Shown piece after piece: positions 20,684 through 31,495 of a DNA stretch of 41,391 nucleotides. Below the pieces are notes generated by a model. The model searched no databases, was not told the origin of the DNA, and saw nothing but the letters and a program-made list of their open reading frames with translations. The translations under genes and the position numbers were made by a program. Positions within the stretch are counted from its first letter, which is position 1. Every line of letters starts with the position of its first letter. The DNA is from a bacterium (lineage in GTDB: Bacteria > Patescibacteriota > Patescibacteriia > 2-01-FULL-39-33). Location: NCBI GenBank assembly GCA_029558735.1, contig JAKQDP010000057.1:1-41391 (forward strand), read 5' to 3'.

Positions 20684-23600
20684 ATGTCTTTTGTCCACTT
20701 ACACACTCACTCGCATTATTCGCTTTTGGACGGTTTGGGGAAAATAGACGAGCTGGTCCGGCAAGCGGTTGATTTTGGCATGCCGGCGTTAGCCTTGACC
20801 GATCACGGGGTAATGTATGGGGCGGTAGAATTTTTTCAGAAGGCGACTAAGGCGGGAATAAAGCCGATTATCGGCCTAGAAGCTTATGTCGCCAGAAATG
20901 GCCACTTGAACAAACGGGCCAAGATTGATGAAAAACCATATCATCTCGTTTTATTGGCTCAAAATGAACAGGGTTATCGGAATTTGGTTAAATTGACTAC
21001 CATTGCTCATTTGGCCGGTTTTTATTATCGGCCGCGAATTGATTGGGAACTGTTGACCCAACATCATGAAGGGTTGATTTGCCTGACTGCTTGCTTGGCC
21101 GGAGAGTTGGCGACCAATATTATCAATAATGATCTGGATTCGGCGCGGGAGATGGTTGGGCGTTATCGGGATTTGTTCGGCGCTGATAATTTTTATTTGG
21201 AAGTTCAACATCATCCTCATTTGGCGCATCAACAGCTGGTTAATGATCATATTTATAAATTCAGCGAAGAATTGGCGGTTCCAGTGGTGGCCACTAATGA
21301 TGTCCATTATTTAGACAAGGAAGATGCTGAGTTTCAGGATATTTTATTGTGCATTCAGATAAAAAAAACTTTAGCCGATACGGACAGACTGTCTATGCTG
21401 GGCGATGATTTTTCTTTTCGTTCGGCCGAGCAAATGGCGGAAGATTTTAAAGACCATCCTCAGGCGCTTGCCAATACGCTGAAAATCGCCGAGCAGTGTG
21501 ATTTTAAGCTGACTTTAGGTCGGGCAGTATTGCCGAATTTTCCCTTGCCGGCCCAGCAGACCGCTGAATCTTATTTGGCTGATTTGTGCCGGCAGGGGCT
21601 TAAAAAAAAATATCCGATTGGTTGTGATGCGGTTATTAATGAGCGGATGGCTTATGAACTGGAAATAATCAGCAAGACCGGTTATGCCGGATATTTTTTG
21701 ATTGTGGCTGATTTTATCAATTGGGCCCGAGATAACGGCATTATCGTCGGTCCCGGCCGGGGTAGCGCCGCCGGATCCTTGGTCTCTTATTTGATTGGCA
21801 TTACCAATATTGATCCGGTTAAGTATGATTTGGTGTTTGAGCGTTTCTTGAATCCGGAGCGAATTTCTATGCCGGATATTGATACCGATTTTGCCGATAG
21901 CCGGCGTGATGATGTGTTGCGTTATGTCACCGAAAAATATGGCCAGGAAAAAGTGGCTCAGATTATTACTTTCGGCACGATGGCCGCTCGAGCGGCCATT
22001 CGTGATGTGGGCCGGGTAATGAGTTTGCCTTATAATTATTGCGATCGGGTGGCCAAACTGGTGCCAATGTTTACCAAACTCCAAGAGGCGATTGATACGG
22101 TGCCAGAGCTTAAGGAAGTAATGGCTGAGGAACAGGGGCGGAAACTGTTGGCGGCCGCTCAACATTTGGAGGGGGTAGTGCGCCATGCTTCCACTCACGC
22201 TTGCGGGGTGGTGATTACGCCCGAATCATTGGATAATTATTGTCCGCGTCAATATGGCAGCCAGGGAGACAATTCAATTATAGTGCAATATGAAGGCAAA
22301 TCAGTGGAAAGTCTCGGCTTATTGAAGATGGATTTTTTGGGTTTGTCCAATTTGACCATTATTGAGCAGGCCTTAGAAATTATTAATAAAATTCATGGCC
22401 ATAAAATTGATATTGGGGCTATTCCTCTGGACAATCAAAAAGCTTTTGAATTGTTTCAGCAGGGGCGGACGACCGGTGTGTTTCAATTGGAGTCAGCCGG
22501 AATGAAGCGCTATCTTCGTCAATTAATGCCGACTGATTTGGAAGATATTATTGCAATGGTGGCCCTGTATCGCCCCGGTCCGATGGAATATATTCCCGAT
22601 TATATTGCCGGCAAACATGGCCGGCGCAAACCCAATTACCTCCATCCCAAACTGGAGCCGATTTTGAAAAAAACTTATGGAGTGGCGGTTTATCAGGAGC
22701 AGTTGTTGCAAATTGCCAGAAATTTGGCCGGCTTTAGCTATGGCGAGGCTGATATTTTGCGGAAAGCGGTTGGCAAGAAGATCAAGGAATTGCTGGATGA
22801 ACAAGAAACAAAAATGATTGCCGGAATGGTTAAAAACGGCATTGAAACTAAAATTGCCAGAAAAATCTGGGAATTTATTTTGCCCTTTGCTTCCTACGGC
22901 TTTAATCGTTCTCACGCCGCTTGTTATGCTTTGATTGCTTATCAGACGGCTTATTTAAAAGCCAATTATCCGGCTGAATTTATGGCGGCGCTCCTAACCT
23001 CTGATCAAGGCAATTCCGATCGAGTGGCGATTGAAGTGGATGAATGCCGACAAATGGGCATTGAGGTTTTACCGCCGGATATTAATGAAAGTTTTTCCAC
23101 TTTTACGGTCGTGGCGGATAGTTTAAAAACCAACACCCCGCGGATTCGGTTTGGCTTATTAGCTATTAAGGGCTTGGGCGAAAATATTGTTAGGGCCATC
23201 ATTAAGGAACGTAAAGCCAACGGCAAGTTTCAGAATTTGGAAGATTTTTTGAGCCGGGTTAAAAGTAAGGACCTAAATAAACGATCGTTGGAATCAATGA
23301 TAAAGTCCGGCTGTTTGGACAGTTTGGGCGATCGCAATCAATTATTGACCAACCTTGAGAAAATATTGAGGTTTGTTCAGGAGATTAATAAAAATGGCGA
23401 TAATGGTCAAAATAGCTTATTTGATGATGCCCCGCAGATAAAATTAAGCAATCTTACCTTGGCTCAGGCGGAGCCATTGGATAAAAAACAACGGCTTAAT
23501 TGGGAAAGGGAGTATCTGGGTTTATATGTATCGGAGCATCCCATGTTTGAATTTAGTCAAAAAATTTCTCGTTTTGTTATCAGTTGCTCTACTCTAAAAA

Positions 23601-24154
23601 ACTGCGCTCCCGGGGCGGAAGTGCGGTTGGCTGGCATCATTACCAGTGTCAAAAGGATTTACACCAAAAAAGGTGAACCAATGGTTTTTGCCACTATTGA
23701 AGACTCGAGTGGTCAGGTGGAGCTATTGGTTTTTCCCAAAATTTTGGAACAGAATCCCCATTTGTGGCAAGTGGATTCCATTATTGCTTGCGCCGGCAAG
23801 ATTTCCGACAAAGATGATGAAGTTAAAATATTGTGTGATCGGGTCTCAGTGTTGGAATTGGATAATATTGAGGAAGTGTTTGACCGGATTTTAAAAGGCT
23901 CGGCGGCCAGAAACGGGGCAGAAACTAATCAGCTTCCATCCGCCGAACCGGAAATCTCCATCACCATTAATGAGCCGATTGACTATCAATTATCAAAACA
24001 GCTCAGGGATTTATTTTATCAAAATCCGGGTAATCACCGAATTCAATTATTGATTAATCGTCGCTCTGGCGTTAAACAGAAAATTAAAACCAGTTTTAAG
24101 GTTAGCCAACGGGATGCCTTAATTAAGCAGATTAAGCAATTATTAGGTTATTGA
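20684..24154 (+). CDS. dnaE: DNA polymerase III alpha subunit
   Basis: 1156 residues, normal DnaE1 length. An N-terminal PHP domain is visible (HLHTHSHYSLLDG, LTDHGVMYGAVEF) with its HxH motif kept. The polymerase core has PGRGSAAGSLVSYLIGITNIDP, the catalytic pair Asp400 and Asp402 in PDIDTDF, and the third catalytic Asp550 in LLKMDFLGLSN. Then come thumb/fingers motifs (TGVFQLESAGMKRYLR, ALYRPGPMEYIPDYIAGKHG), the FNRSHAACYALIAYQTAYLK helix, helix-hairpin-helix repeats, and an OB-fold (VRLAGIITSVKRIYTKKGEP). It is the replicative polymerase. There is no Shine-Dalgarno sequence before the ATG. A leader hairpin may control it. Confidence 0.98.
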   Translation: MSFVHLHTHSHYSLLDGLGKIDELVRQAVDFGMPALALTDHGVMYGAVEFFQKATKAGIKPIIGLEAYVARNGHLNKRAKIDEKPYHLVLLAQNEQGYRNLVKLTTIAHLAGFYYRPRIDWELLTQHHEGLICLTACLAGELATNIINNDLDSAREMVGRYRDLFGADNFYLEVQHHPHLAHQQLVNDHIYKFSEELAVPVVATNDVHYLDKEDAEFQDILLCIQIKKTLADTDRLSMLGDDFSFRSAEQMAEDFKDHPQALANTLKIAEQCDFKLTLGRAVLPNFPLPAQQTAESYLADLCRQGLKKKYPIGCDAVINERMAYELEIISKTGYAGYFLIVADFINWARDNGIIVGPGRGSAAGSLVSYLIGITNIDPVKYDLVFERFLNPERISMPDIDTDFADSRRDDVLRYVTEKYGQEKVAQIITFGTMAARAAIRDVGRVMSLPYNYCDRVAKLVPMFTKLQEAIDTVPELKEVMAEEQGRKLLAAAQHLEGVVRHASTHACGVVITPESLDNYCPRQYGSQGDNSIIVQYEGKSVESLGLLKMDFLGLSNLTIIEQALEIINKIHGHKIDIGAIPLDNQKAFELFQQGRTTGVFQLESAGMKRYLRQLMPTDLEDIIAMVALYRPGPMEYIPDYIAGKHGRRKPNYLHPKLEPILKKTYGVAVYQEQLLQIARNLAGFSYGEADILRKAVGKKIKELLDEQETKMIAGMVKNGIETKIARKIWEFILPFASYGFNRSHAACYALIAYQTAYLKANYPAEFMAALLTSDQGNSDRVAIEVDECRQMGIEVLPPDINESFSTFTVVADSLKTNTPRIRFGLLAIKGLGENIVRAIIKERKANGKFQNLEDFLSRVKSKDLNKRSLESMIKSGCLDSLGDRNQLLTNLEKILRFVQEINKNGDNGQNSLFDDAPQIKLSNLTLAQAEPLDKKQRLNWEREYLGLYVSEHPMFEFSQKISRFVISCSTLKNCAPGAEVRLAGIITSVKRIYTKKGEPMVFATIEDSSGQVELLVFPKILEQNPHLWQVDSIIACAGKISDKDDEVKILCDRVSVLELDNIEEVFDRILKGSAARNGAETNQLPSAEPEISITINEPIDYQLSKQLRDLFYQNPGNHRIQLLINRRSGVKQKIKTSFKVSQRDALIKQIKQLLGY

Positions 24155-24243: not shown

Positions 24244-24657
24244 ATGGGCAATATTTTCTCAAATTTTTCTTTTATTTATTTATTTTTATCATTGGCTTTA
24301 TTGATGGCGCCAGCGATGATTTGGTATTTTCGTTTTGTCAGTAAATCTAACGCCACGGCTTATTTTGGTATTTTATCCAAATATTTGAGGGATTTGACTG
24401 CTTTAGTATGACTCAAAAAACTGGATTCGGTGATTGGCCCGGTGGTGATTTTTCCGCAAGCCATTAAAGTTTCAATTATTTTAACCAAAAAAATCAAGAA
24501 CCGCGCTTATCCCGATAAGTCGATTGATGCTTTGGACGAGGCGGCCAGTAGTGTTCAGTTGAAGAATATTTCCGGGCCCAATCAGAGCCGACCCAAGGTG
24601 ACCGCCAAGGACATTAGGGGGGGGTTATTCGCCAATGGTATTAAGCATAAAAAATAA
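24244..24657 (+). pseudogene. Remnant of a membrane-anchored Clp/Hsp100 ATPase
   Basis: Reading from the ATG at 24244, codons 1-55 give a membrane segment (IYLFLSLALLMAPAMIW) and then SKYLRDLTALV, the conserved run that opens the first AAA+ domain of ClpB/ClpC (canonical KYGRDLTALARQGKLDPVIGR). Codon 56 is an in-frame TGA (24409-24411), where the family has Arg, consistent with CGA to TGA. The same frame continues with LKKLDSVIG, then jumps to the end of the domain: AIKVSIILTKKIKNRAYPDK followed by SIDALDEAASSV (canonical LPDKAIDLLDEAAS) and KVTAKDI. Walker A, Walker B and the whole second AAA+ domain are missing. It is a decayed gene with an internal deletion plus a nonsense mutation. Confidence 0.85.
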
Positions 24658-24671
24658 ATATTAAATTCAAC

Positions 24672-25808
24672 ATGACGGAAGAATTCTCAACTCTCTCAAC
24701 ACCCAAAATCGGCTTATATCGCAACATTTCCATTTTTTTTATTGTCATGGCGGTCATTTTATTGGTGGTAGTATTTTTGTTTTTTTACAATCAGGCCACC
24801 ATTATTATTACTTCGGAAAAACGAGATATTAATTTGAGTTTTAATTTGGAAATTAAAACTGAACCGACGGCTGATGAGCTCAGGGAAAAGGATATTATTG
24901 CCGGCTCTTTGGTTAATCAGGAGTTGGATGTGGAAGGAGTTTTTGATGTTACCGTCACCAAGACGGTCTCCTCCGGTTTGGTTGGCCGAGTTAAGCTGGT
25001 TAATGGATTATCCAAAGATCAGCCGCTTTTAAAAACCACCCAGCTTCAGGCGGCTAATGGTGTAATTGTTCGGACCAATGAATATGTGGTGGTGCCGGCC
25101 GGCGGTAGTGTGATGGTTGATGTTTATCCTAAGGATCCGGAAGAATTTATTGATATTGAGCCGGGCGATTTGACGGTTATCAAGCTTAATCCGGCTAGTC
25201 AAGCAAAAGTTTATGGGGTGGCCGAGACGGTTTTGACCGCCAAGCCGCGGCAAATTAAAATTTTGTCCGAGGCCGATATCAATCAGGCCAAGCAACAACT
25301 ATTGGAGCAAGCCGAGAAAAAATTGCGCCAAGAGTGGCAACTGCCGGAACAACAAAAAGTCACTGTCCAGGTCGTAGAAGCCAAAACAGACAAAACCATT
25401 GGTGAAGAAACCGAGCAATTTAGCTTAACATTGAAGGTTATCGGTAAATATTTGACAGTCAACAATGACCAATTGGCCAGCTTAATTGCTAGAAAAGTCG
25501 AGAATTTGAATTTAGCTGGCGTTCAGGTCAATAATATTAATTTTAATGATTTGGAGTATACGATTACTGATGAGGACTTAAAGGGGAGTGTTTTAGCCAA
25601 GGTTAATTACGCCTTAGAAGCCTTAATTGACAAAAACAATCCAATTTTAGACCCGGCCAATTTGGTCGGCAAAGAAGCCACCGAGGCTGAGACCTATCTT
25701 TTGAATTATGATTTGATTAAAGAGGTGGATGTTATCATTAGTCCGGGTTGGAATAAAAAAATTCCCAAAAATGAAGACAGAATAAAGATTATTATCAGAT
25801 ATGAATAA
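24672..25808 (+). CDS. Single-pass membrane protein with baseplate-J-like extracytoplasmic domain
   Basis: 378 residues. A single transmembrane segment lies at about 20-40 (ISIFFIVMAVILLVVVFLFFY), followed by a beta-rich extracytoplasmic region. Stretches such as LNFSFNLEIK-like strands, PTADELREKDIIAGSLV, LLKTTQLQAANGVIVRTNEY and VVVPAGGSVMVDVYP match what I recall of the Patescibacteria family that pipelines label 'baseplate J/gp47'. This copy lacks the usual long cytoplasmic N-terminal half. The role is unknown; there is no other phage or contractile-system gene nearby, so a literal baseplate is not supported. It follows the Clp-ATPase remnant by 14 nt. Confidence 0.65.
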   Translation: MTEEFSTLSTPKIGLYRNISIFFIVMAVILLVVVFLFFYNQATIIITSEKRDINLSFNLEIKTEPTADELREKDIIAGSLVNQELDVEGVFDVTVTKTVSSGLVGRVKLVNGLSKDQPLLKTTQLQAANGVIVRTNEYVVVPAGGSVMVDVYPKDPEEFIDIEPGDLTVIKLNPASQAKVYGVAETVLTAKPRQIKILSEADINQAKQQLLEQAEKKLRQEWQLPEQQKVTVQVVEAKTDKTIGEETEQFSLTLKVIGKYLTVNNDQLASLIARKVENLNLAGVQVNNINFNDLEYTITDEDLKGSVLAKVNYALEALIDKNNPILDPANLVGKEATEAETYLLNYDLIKEVDVIISPGWNKKIPKNEDRIKIIIRYE

Positions 25809-26002: not shown

Positions 26003-28171
26003 ATGAATAAAACATATTATCTCTGGACTTTGGGTTGCCAGATGAACAAATCCGACGCGGAAAGAATAGCCGCTATTTTAAATGATTTGGGTTATCGGTC
26101 TTCGTCTTTTGAGGCGGCGGCTGATTTGATAGTAGTGGTCGCTTGTTCGGTTCGGCAAAGCGCCATTGATCGGATTTATGGTCGGTCGCGCCAGTGGCAG
26201 GCGAGACGGCAGCAGGGCCGATTAGTTACTATTTTGACCGGTTGTGTTTTAGCCTCGGATCAGGAAAAATTAAAGCATAAATTTGATTTACTGTTGCCGA
26301 TCAAAAATATTGTTCAATTGCCAAAATTATTAGCCGATTTAAAGCCACTAGCAACGAAAGATTATTTTCAGCTTGAGCCGGCTGCCAGTCGGTCTTATTC
26401 GGCCCTGGTGCCGATTATGACTGGCTGTAATAATTTCTGTGCTTATTGCGTGGTGCCTTATAGTCGCGGCCGCGAAATCTCGCGGCCGGCCCAAGAAGTT
26501 ATTGACGAGTGTCGGCAGCTTATTAAGCGAGGCGTTAAAGAAATAGTTCTATTGGGGCAGAATGTTAATTCTTACCATTCATCGTTCGCCGGGCAACAAT
26601 ATGATTTTTCCGAGCTATTAAAAGCGATTGACGCTATTAATGGCGATTATTGGCTTCGTTTTATTACCAGTCATCCCAAGGACCTATCGGATCAACTGAT
26701 TGCGGTTATGGCTGACAGCCGGCACCTTACGCCTTATTTGCATTTGGCTTTGCAATCGGGTGATGATGCAATATTAAAAGCAATGAATCGCCAATATACG
26801 GCCCCACACTATTGGGAATTGGTCAAGCGGGCCCGACAAGCCATTCCTCGATTGATGATCTCCACTGATATCATTGTCGGTTTTCCCGGCGAAACCAGAA
26901 GTCAATTCAACCAGACTGCCAAACTAATGAAGAAAATCGGTTTTGATATGGCTTATATTGCCAAATATTCGGCCCGGCCCGGGACTGCCGCTGCCCGATT
27001 GAAAGACACTGTCAGTCTGGAAGAAAAAAAACGGCGCGCCAAAGAATTGACCGATATTCTCAAACAATCGGCCGAGACCGCTAACCGAAAATTAATCGGT
27101 GCCACCACCAGGGTCTTGGTGGAGCGCTGTGTCAATGGCCGCTGTCAGGGTAAAAATGAACAGTTTAAAACAGTGGTTTTTTCCGGACCGCGTCGTTTGG
27201 TCGGTCAGTTTGTCGAGGTGGTAATCGAAGAGGCGGACAGTTGGGGTCTTCGCGGCGCAGTGGTTGCCCCCCGGGTGGTGGTGGTTTTGGGGCCGACCGC
27301 TTGCGGCAAGACCAGATTGGCGGTTAGGTTGGCCAGTCAGTTTAATGGTGAAATAATTTCCGCCGATAGTCGTCAGGTTTACCGCGGTATGGATATTGGG
27401 ACGGGCAAAGATTTGGCCGATTATCAGCTCGGCGATCATACTATCCCGTATCACTTAATTGATGTAGTTGGTCCCCAAACTGATTTTAATGTCGCCAAAT
27501 ATCAAAAATTGGCTTATCGTCAGATAGCGGAAGTTTTGGCGCGAGGCAAGACGCCGTTTTTGGTGGGGGGCAGCGGGTTGTATTTGGACGCGGTGATTGA
27601 CGGTTATCAATTGCCTCAATTGGCTAAAAATAGCGCCAAGATCAGAGAGGCACTTAATCAAAGGTCATTACCCCAATTAGTTGCCGACTTAAAAAAAGTT
27701 GATTTGGCGAGCTATCGTCAGATTGATAAAAAAAATCGTCGCCGGGTTCAGCGGGCCCTGGAAATATATTATCAAACCGGTCAACCCAAGTCCGGCCAGA
27801 TCAATAAAGTAAAGCCCGATTACCAGTGGCTGGTTATTGGAATCAAATTCCCGTTGGAAGAAATTTATCGTCGCATTGCCAGGCGGTTGCGAGTCCGCTT
27901 AAAACAGGGGATGATTGAAGAAGTTAGTCAGCTCAAGGCCAATGGTCTCAGCTGGAAACGGCTGGATGATTTTGGTTTGGAATATCGTTGGATTGCTCGC
28001 TACTTGAGAGGGCTGATTGATTATCCGACGATGTTGGCTGAATTGGAAAAAGCCATTCGTCATTTTGCCAAGCGCCAGCTGACCTGGTTCAAAAGAAGAG
28101 ACGATATCCATTGGGTGACCAATTTTAGGCAGGCGAAGAAATTAACTCAAATTTTCTTGAATAAAAAATAA
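26003..28171 (+). CDS. miaB-miaA: MiaB-MiaA fusion: tRNA A37 methylthiotransferase joined to dimethylallyltransferase
   Basis: 722 residues in one frame. Residues 1-420 are a full MiaB: UPF0004 domain with Cys12, Cys48 (ACSVRQSA) and Cys81 (LTGC) for the auxiliary cluster, radical-SAM cysteines 142/146/149 in GCNNFCAYCVVPYSRGREIS, and a C-terminal TRAM domain ending near WGLRGAVV. Residues 422-722 are a full MiaA: P-loop GPTACGKT (430-437), SADSRQVYRGMDIGTGK, VGGSGLYLDAVIDGY, RRVQRALEIYYQTGQP and FAKRQLTWFKRRDDIHW. MiaA prenylates N6 of A37 and MiaB then methylthiolates C2, giving ms2i6A37. The two domains abut with no linker. The start at 26003 gives the standard MiaB N-terminus (KTYYLWTLGCQMNKSDAE). 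Confidence 0.95.
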   Translation: MNKTYYLWTLGCQMNKSDAERIAAILNDLGYRSSSFEAAADLIVVVACSVRQSAIDRIYGRSRQWQARRQQGRLVTILTGCVLASDQEKLKHKFDLLLPIKNIVQLPKLLADLKPLATKDYFQLEPAASRSYSALVPIMTGCNNFCAYCVVPYSRGREISRPAQEVIDECRQLIKRGVKEIVLLGQNVNSYHSSFAGQQYDFSELLKAIDAINGDYWLRFITSHPKDLSDQLIAVMADSRHLTPYLHLALQSGDDAILKAMNRQYTAPHYWELVKRARQAIPRLMISTDIIVGFPGETRSQFNQTAKLMKKIGFDMAYIAKYSARPGTAAARLKDTVSLEEKKRRAKELTDILKQSAETANRKLIGATTRVLVERCVNGRCQGKNEQFKTVVFSGPRRLVGQFVEVVIEEADSWGLRGAVVAPRVVVVLGPTACGKTRLAVRLASQFNGEIISADSRQVYRGMDIGTGKDLADYQLGDHTIPYHLIDVVGPQTDFNVAKYQKLAYRQIAEVLARGKTPFLVGGSGLYLDAVIDGYQLPQLAKNSAKIREALNQRSLPQLVADLKKVDLASYRQIDKKNRRRVQRALEIYYQTGQPKSGQINKVKPDYQWLVIGIKFPLEEIYRRIARRLRVRLKQGMIEEVSQLKANGLSWKRLDDFGLEYRWIARYLRGLIDYPTMLAELEKAIRHFAKRQLTWFKRRDDIHWVTNFRQAKKLTQIFLNKK

Positions 28172-30511: not shown

Positions 30512-31495
30512 TCAAGCGCGTAATTGGCCGGTTTTTAACCGGTCAATGATTGTTTTGATGGTGCTTTGTTTTTCAGGCGGAAATCGCCACTCCGTGATTT
30601 TTTCCGGGGTGAGCAGTTCTTCCAGTTGGGGAATTACTTCCAGATCGCGAGCCACTTCGCTGGCCAGCGAACGATTGACAAACGCCTCATCAGTGGGAAA
30701 GGCGTCAAAGAAACTGGCCAAGCCTTTGGCTTGGTCGCCGCCGACTAGGCCGAAGTCTTGGCCGTAAATATGGAGCGAACAGGAAAAATCAGCGTAACTG
30801 CCCAGTTTGACTGGTCGGCCGCTAATGGCGGCAATTTCTTGAGCCACTATTTGCAGCCAGAAGGTGATTGCGATCACATTATCGCTCCAAGCTTTATACA
30901 GATCGCGGGAGCGCCACATGGTGGTGGCGTTCAAATTGAGCGAGCCGTCTTCATTTTCAACGCAACGCAGTTGCAATTCCCTGAGGCAGGGCATATCTTC
31001 GGTCAAAAAGGGATCCAAATTGGGGACAGCCGTGGTGCAGATGGCCCGCCGGGTGTAAGGGATTTGGGCGACCAATTCAATCGCTCTGGCCAGTTGGTTA
31101 AAACTGCCGCCGCTGCTTTCCGGATGGGCGACTAAGCGCTGGTGATAAGTATAGGGCCACTGCTTAGCTTCCAGTTCTTTGCCATCAATCACTTGGCGCA
31201 GAATGCTGGTTGGCACCACTAAATGGTCTTTGGCGCCCATAATCTCGGCAATATAAGCGCCGCGTTCGCAAAAAGAAATTGGCGAATAACGCGGGTCGCT
31301 AAACGGGTCTTTGACTTCAATCAGCACCCGAGCATCGCGGCTGGGCGGGTCAATATATTGACCCGCCTCGTTCTGGCGGTCATACTGAGTGCGCATTGGC
31401 AGCCCATCGGTCCAAACCGTTTTAATGGCGCGCCAGAGCGCTTGGGGAATGTTTTCGGCCACAATATGACGAGTCGGCAGGTTGCTATTGGTCAT
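30512..31495 (-). CDS. thyA: Thymidylate synthase (ThyA superfamily)
   Basis: 327 residues, longer than bacterial ThyA but with its active site. The nucleophile is Cys170 in EDMPCLRELQLR. YTRRAIC (147-153) supplies the phosphate-binding arginine pair. MWRSRDL (193-199) corresponds to QRSxD. Asn206 in WSDN matches the Asn that selects uracil over cytosine, and LHIYGQD holds His242 and Tyr244. This argues for dUMP methylation with methylene-tetrahydrofolate rather than dCMP hydroxymethylation. Sequence around the motifs is divergent, nearer to archaeal or phage-type enzymes by eye. An AAAGGAG ribosome binding site precedes the ATG. It follows the first thymidylate kinase by 18 nt in the same operon. 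Confidence 0.85.
   Translation of the reverse strand: MTNSNLPTRHIVAENIPQALWRAIKTVWTDGLPMRTQYDRQNEAGQYIDPPSRDARVLIEVKDPFSDPRYSPISFCERGAYIAEIMGAKDHLVVPTSILRQVIDGKELEAKQWPYTYHQRLVAHPESSGGSFNQLARAIELVAQIPYTRRAICTTAVPNLDPFLTEDMPCLRELQLRCVENEDGSLNLNATTMWRSRDLYKAWSDNVIAITFWLQIVAQEIAAISGRPVKLGSYADFSCSLHIYGQDFGLVGGDQAKGLASFFDAFPTDEAFVNRSLASEVARDLEVIPQLEELLTPEKITEWRFPPEKQSTIKTIIDRLKTGQLRA

Follow-up and report, generated by a model that had tools for sequence, protein, structure and literature searches.

The frame at positions 26003..28171 (+) of the window, by which we mean the whole stretch of 41,391 nucleotides that was analysed, raises the question of whether two tRNA-modifying enzymes, MiaB and MiaA, are joined here in a single polypeptide, how such a gene came about, and what purpose the joining serves. 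A preliminary description made from the DNA letters had proposed one uninterrupted frame of 722 residues in which a complete MiaB is followed without linker by a complete MiaA. The frame bears this out: it opens with ATG and runs without an internal stop to TAA (722 aa plus stop), and both halves scored above their equivalog cut-offs. Pfam domains were found in the order UPF0004 (residues 5-94), Radical_SAM (136-308), TRAM (363-421) and IPPT (458-698), all above their gathering scores. The MiaB half (residues 1-421; 26003..27265, +), with UPF0004, radical-SAM and TRAM parts, matched the NCBIfam model TIGR01574 over residues 4-421 with 394.1 bits (cut-off 355.3), while it stayed below the cut-offs of the rival models MtaB (296.9 bits, cut-off 357.05) and RimO (233.9 bits, cut-off 356.95). 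All six cluster cysteines aligned to those of 7mjv, namely Cys 12, 48 and 81 of the auxiliary cluster in UPF0004 and Cys 142, 146 and 149 of the radical-SAM CX3CX2C motif, and the TRAM domain (27089..27265, +) was recognized with 28.6 bits against a cut-off of 21. The MiaA half (residues 422-722; 27266..28168, +) matched TIGR00174 over residues 425-706 with 225.7 bits (cut-off 148.65) and was aligned to solved MiaA structures. It carries the P-loop GPTACGKT (residues 430-437; 27290..27313, +), located by sequence and alignment, together with DSRQVY with the conserved Asp, GGSGLY, the insertion domain, RALE and, at residues 690-696, KRQLTWF. The preliminary description had already named the P-loop at this place and the KRQLTWF motif. 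The junction GAVVAPRVVVVL (residues 418-429; 27254..27289, +) leads from the last TRAM strand to MiaA strand 1, and at the joint, SWGLRGAVVAPRVVVVLGPTACGKT, the first MiaA strand comes directly after the last TRAM residues, so that the protein is essentially linker-free, as had been claimed. The window fusion is one complete MiaB and one complete MiaA in one frame.

Structure models agreed with the profile results. The AF2 model of the window protein had a pLDDT of 95.3 and a pTM of 0.86 with an ordered junction, flanked by strands 416-420 and 424-429 at a local pLDDT of about 96-97. Foldseek matched the MiaB half to the MiaB-RNA crystal structure 7mjw (TMt 0.89) and the MiaA half to the MiaA-tRNA crystal structure 2zm5 (TMt 0.87). 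Confident folding of both halves, together with their crystal-structure matches, puts the fusion far beyond chance. The genome, 99% complete with 991 kb in 75 contigs, contained no second MiaA or MiaB; the only other match was a radical-SAM protein of 28% identity.

A fused frame could also be produced by an assembly error in which a single-base indel at the C6- and G-rich junction merged two overlapping genes. The window junction does contain CCCCCC and G runs, and in close unfused relatives the two genes overlap by 22-34 nt in different frames, with MiaB stopping right after the TRAM domain. However, an extra or missing base at the joint would lengthen MiaB by 16-36 codons, up to a stop at 27325 or 27354 that lies past the P-loop. 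Such an overlap is abnormal and unlike that of the close relatives, and MiaA would be left with no ATG near the junction from which to start. Since 17 further fusions occur in other genomes as well, we regard an assembly error as extremely improbable. Another alternative is that a free MiaA is made beside the fusion by internal initiation. The junction segment 27254..27289 has no ATG, but codon 420 is GTG (27260), and GTG codons lie at -10 and at -5 to -3 before the P-loop. Against initiation at GTG 27260, no clear Shine-Dalgarno sequence was seen upstream when the sequence was read by eye, and six other fusions (6/18) have zero ATG, GTG or TTG codons in the last 20 codons before the P-loop, which makes such initiation unlikely for the window. 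In 14 of the 18 fusions, ATG was absent from the 40 codons that precede the P-loop of MiaA; where no start codon lies ahead of the MiaA part, a separate MiaA is hardly possible.

The preliminary description had suggested a search for this architecture across Patescibacteria. Loci fetched from 381 genomes sampled across the class, from 380 sampled across the phylum and from GTDB contigs, with phyla beyond Patescibacteria hardly covered, were translated stop to stop and the frames scored with MiaB and MiaA profiles. This ORF and HMM analysis revealed 18 distinct Patescibacteria proteins, 17 beyond the window, that hold MiaB and MiaA in one frame. Two of them belong to the window's family and are also present in GTDB contigs titled Candidatus Buchananbacteria (L003, identical with L054, and L004, identical with L055). 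Seven (L038-L044) belong to the family coded f6, in which an eighth case (G731) is split between contigs, and the others are L032, L059, L060, L062, L067, L134, L205 and L212. The fusions L134 (genome G391), whose start is cut off at a contig end, and L212 (G633) come from other classes of the phylum. Of the 381 genomes sampled across the class, at least 12 carried a fusion, a lower bound taken among the matches listed. When 10 of the 18 fusions were rechecked with NCBIfam models, the MiaA part scored above its cut-off in all 10 and the MiaB part in eight, the two misses being TRAM-less proteins. In the alignment, the fusions conserve the six cluster cysteines of MiaB and, in MiaA, the Gly and Lys of the P-loop, the Asp-Ser pair and KRQxTWF; the sole gap, at Cys 12, falls in a fusion whose start is truncated by a contig end. 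The MiaB-MiaA fusion is thus recurrent in Patescibacteria and no one-off. Several apparent fusions, among them those of G015, G071, G156 and G439, were rejected on inspection of the DNA, which has separate genes with a stop between them, and the coriobacterial locus of Adlercreutzia (L074) was rejected for one in-frame stop between the genes.

To trace the origin of the fusion, we built a tree from 146 rows of concatenated MiaB and MiaA, comprising 18 fused loci and 128 unfused loci with both genes. The fused or separate state changed at least 13 times on this tree, a count that is blind to gain versus loss. A single clade of the fusions in the window's family (window, L003 and L004) was rejected with an AU p of 2e-5, as was a clade of L003 and L004 with a p of 0.0012. 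The fused proteins of this family are not one clade, and therefore the fusion arose repeatedly or was undone; a single gain followed by later splits may have occurred within the family. In 72 of the 128 unfused loci, miaA lies on the same strand within 150 nt of miaB, and the unfused pairs often overlap, the shared stretch ranging from a few bases up to tens. Separate pairs such as L005 and L006 are like the window in gene order and strand and encode proteins about 55-62% identical to it, but there each enzyme has a gene of its own, with a separate start and stop, and the two genes lie in different frames. Separate genes are also present in the same-family genomes G001, G002 and G004, and those of G001 and G004, the window's nearest relatives, overlap, which most likely is the ancestral state. 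The preliminary description had counted separate overlapping genes in close relatives against the fusion. Such genes were found in these two genomes, but the fusion stands, because 17 other genomes, two of them of the same family, carry a single-frame fusion. Most nearby unfused pairs are adjacent and often overlapping, which points to recurrent stop loss or frame merging that joins a conserved gene pair. The junctions of the different fusions vary in length and sequence.

Some fusions lack parts that the window protein has. In all seven f6 fusions, MiaA is short by about 60 residues (541-606 in the window), RALE included, and the same deletion was found in five unfused f6 relatives (L011, L167, L168, L170 and L173). 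The missing residues presumably correspond to the anticodon-contacting insertion domain of MiaA. RALE is conserved in 47 of 47 proteins outside the shortened f6 MiaA, which keeps the P-loop and KRQxTWF, and the AF2 model of one such f6 fusion had a pLDDT of 92.2 and a pTM of 0.79. TRAM was undetected in four fusions (L059, L062, L067 and L212) and in the unfused MiaB of L029, L061, L064, L066, L129, L199, L204 and L213-L215, several of which adjoin miaA. Since unfused relatives show the same losses, domain loss is independent of fusion.

We consider it very probable, from the sequence, that the window protein is a bifunctional tRNA-A37 ms2i6A synthase whose gene derives from a merged miaB-miaA pair. 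The C-terminal MiaA half would take the dimethylallyl group of DMAPP and attach it to N6 of A37 in tRNAs that have A36A37A38, and the N-terminal MiaB half, with its two [4Fe-4S] clusters and SAM, would next place a methylthio group on C2 of i6A37. Loss of the miaB stop, or merging of the two frames where miaB and miaA were adjacent or overlapped, would have given rise to the gene. Such events presumably occurred repeatedly in Patescibacteria, and the simplest consequence of the fusion would be that both enzymes are made in 1:1 amounts from one reading frame. A36A37A38 is the recognition sequence of MiaA (PMC5372745), and the prenyl group is required before MiaB acts (PMC9553926). A36 was present in six of the 39 resolved tRNAs (Leu-CAA, Leu-UAA, Phe, Cys, Ser-UGA and Tyr), and every one of these carries A36A37A38, so that, given the need of MiaB for prior prenylation, ms2i6A37 is the most likely product. 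IspH, GHMP kinases and the type-2 IPP isomerase IDI-2 were not detected in the whole genome; with no DMAPP-pathway gene detected, DMAPP would come from outside the cell or via an unrecognised route. We infer both activities, their order and the external origin of DMAPP. The source bacterium is tiny and probably host-dependent. MiaA was present with no MiaB match in several genomes, including G005 and G006 (98% complete), which suggests i6A without methylthiolation in some lineages.

Each half on its own resembles a known enzyme. Like MiaB (TIGR01574; PDB 7mjv-7mjz), the window protein has the full-length sequence, the six cluster cysteines, TRAM and the fold (TMt 0.87-0.89), but its C terminus runs on into a second enzyme. 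The MiaA half shares the P-loop, DSRQVY, GGSGLY, KRQLTWF and fold (TMt 0.87) with the E. coli MiaA-tRNA structures (PDB 2zm5/3foz; TIGR00174), whereas it has no ATG of its own and receives its N-terminal strand straight from TRAM. TrcP of Vibrio cholerae is similar in that one polypeptide holds two enzymes for consecutive steps in the anticodon loop, and different in its chemistry, which turns C at position 32 into U and then into pseudouridine, and in having an extra long helical tRNA-binding domain (PMC9553926). The preliminary description knew of no natural MiaB-MiaA fusion, and our literature search, limited to open-licence PMC papers, likewise found none published. As far as the open literature shows, the window holds an undescribed domain architecture joining known enzymes.

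What the fusion is for can be read in two ways, both of which are compatible with an ms2i6A synthase. One is selection for channelling, in which a tRNA with new i6A37 would swing from the MiaA to the MiaB site before release and be converted fully to ms2i6A. The recurrent fusion of enzymes for consecutive steps and the high pTM of the two-domain models, in the window and in another fusion clade, are consistent with this, and TrcP offers a precedent, being a two-step tRNA-editing fusion with proposed channelling (PMC9553926). On the other hand, sister genomes work with separate proteins, so channelling is not required; the fusion was repeatedly gained and/or lost inside one family; and fusion of compact overlapping pairs can arise without selection for channelling. 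We therefore find channelling rather doubtful. The other reading is that the fusion is a near-neutral by-product of compaction, in which stop loss or an indel fuses overlapping pairs and the domains stay independent with no new property. The adjacent or overlapping pairs of unfused relatives, with identical gene order, argue for this, as do the scatter of fused and unfused states and the differing junctions, while retention of the fusion in seven complete f6 genomes of five genera argues against it; on balance, we lean towards such a by-product. A bolder proposal is that a processive ms2i6A synthase, whose MiaB and MiaA parts act during a single binding of the tRNA, evolved repeatedly in Patescibacteria. 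In some lineages the partner would then stand in for lost tRNA-binding parts, with TRAM missing in four fusions and the MiaA insertion domain in seven. We put it forward as speculation that is probably wrong in this form.

Whichever purpose it serves, the fusion is a natural and recurrent tethering of consecutive tRNA-modifying enzymes with untethered counterparts in sister genomes, and the existence of both states makes its effect on ms2i6A levels and tRNA hand-over directly testable. A reduced genome here retains the predicted full ms2i6A route with no detectable DMAPP synthesis, which points to outside supply. Automatic annotation is expected to name such a fusion MiaB only or MiaA only, and pathway surveys may therefore miscount.

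The neighbouring genes give no hint of a specialised role for the fusion. On the upstream side, dnaE (20684-24154) is followed by a short ORF of 75 aa (24430-24657, +) that has an AAA-lid match and is possibly a gene remnant, and by a gene for a 378-residue protein (24672-25808). Downstream, on the opposite strand, are two small ORFs, gatB, a thymidylate-synthase-like gene and a thymidylate kinase gene. The thymidylate-synthase-like protein (327 aa; 30512-31495, -) adjoins the kinase, and its closest model, the methanogen-type TIGR03283, was matched below the cut-off. Finally, a MiaB 51% identical to that of the window was found on a contig assigned to a Jordarchaeia archaeon MAG (L088), an archaeal assignment that is possibly a binning error.
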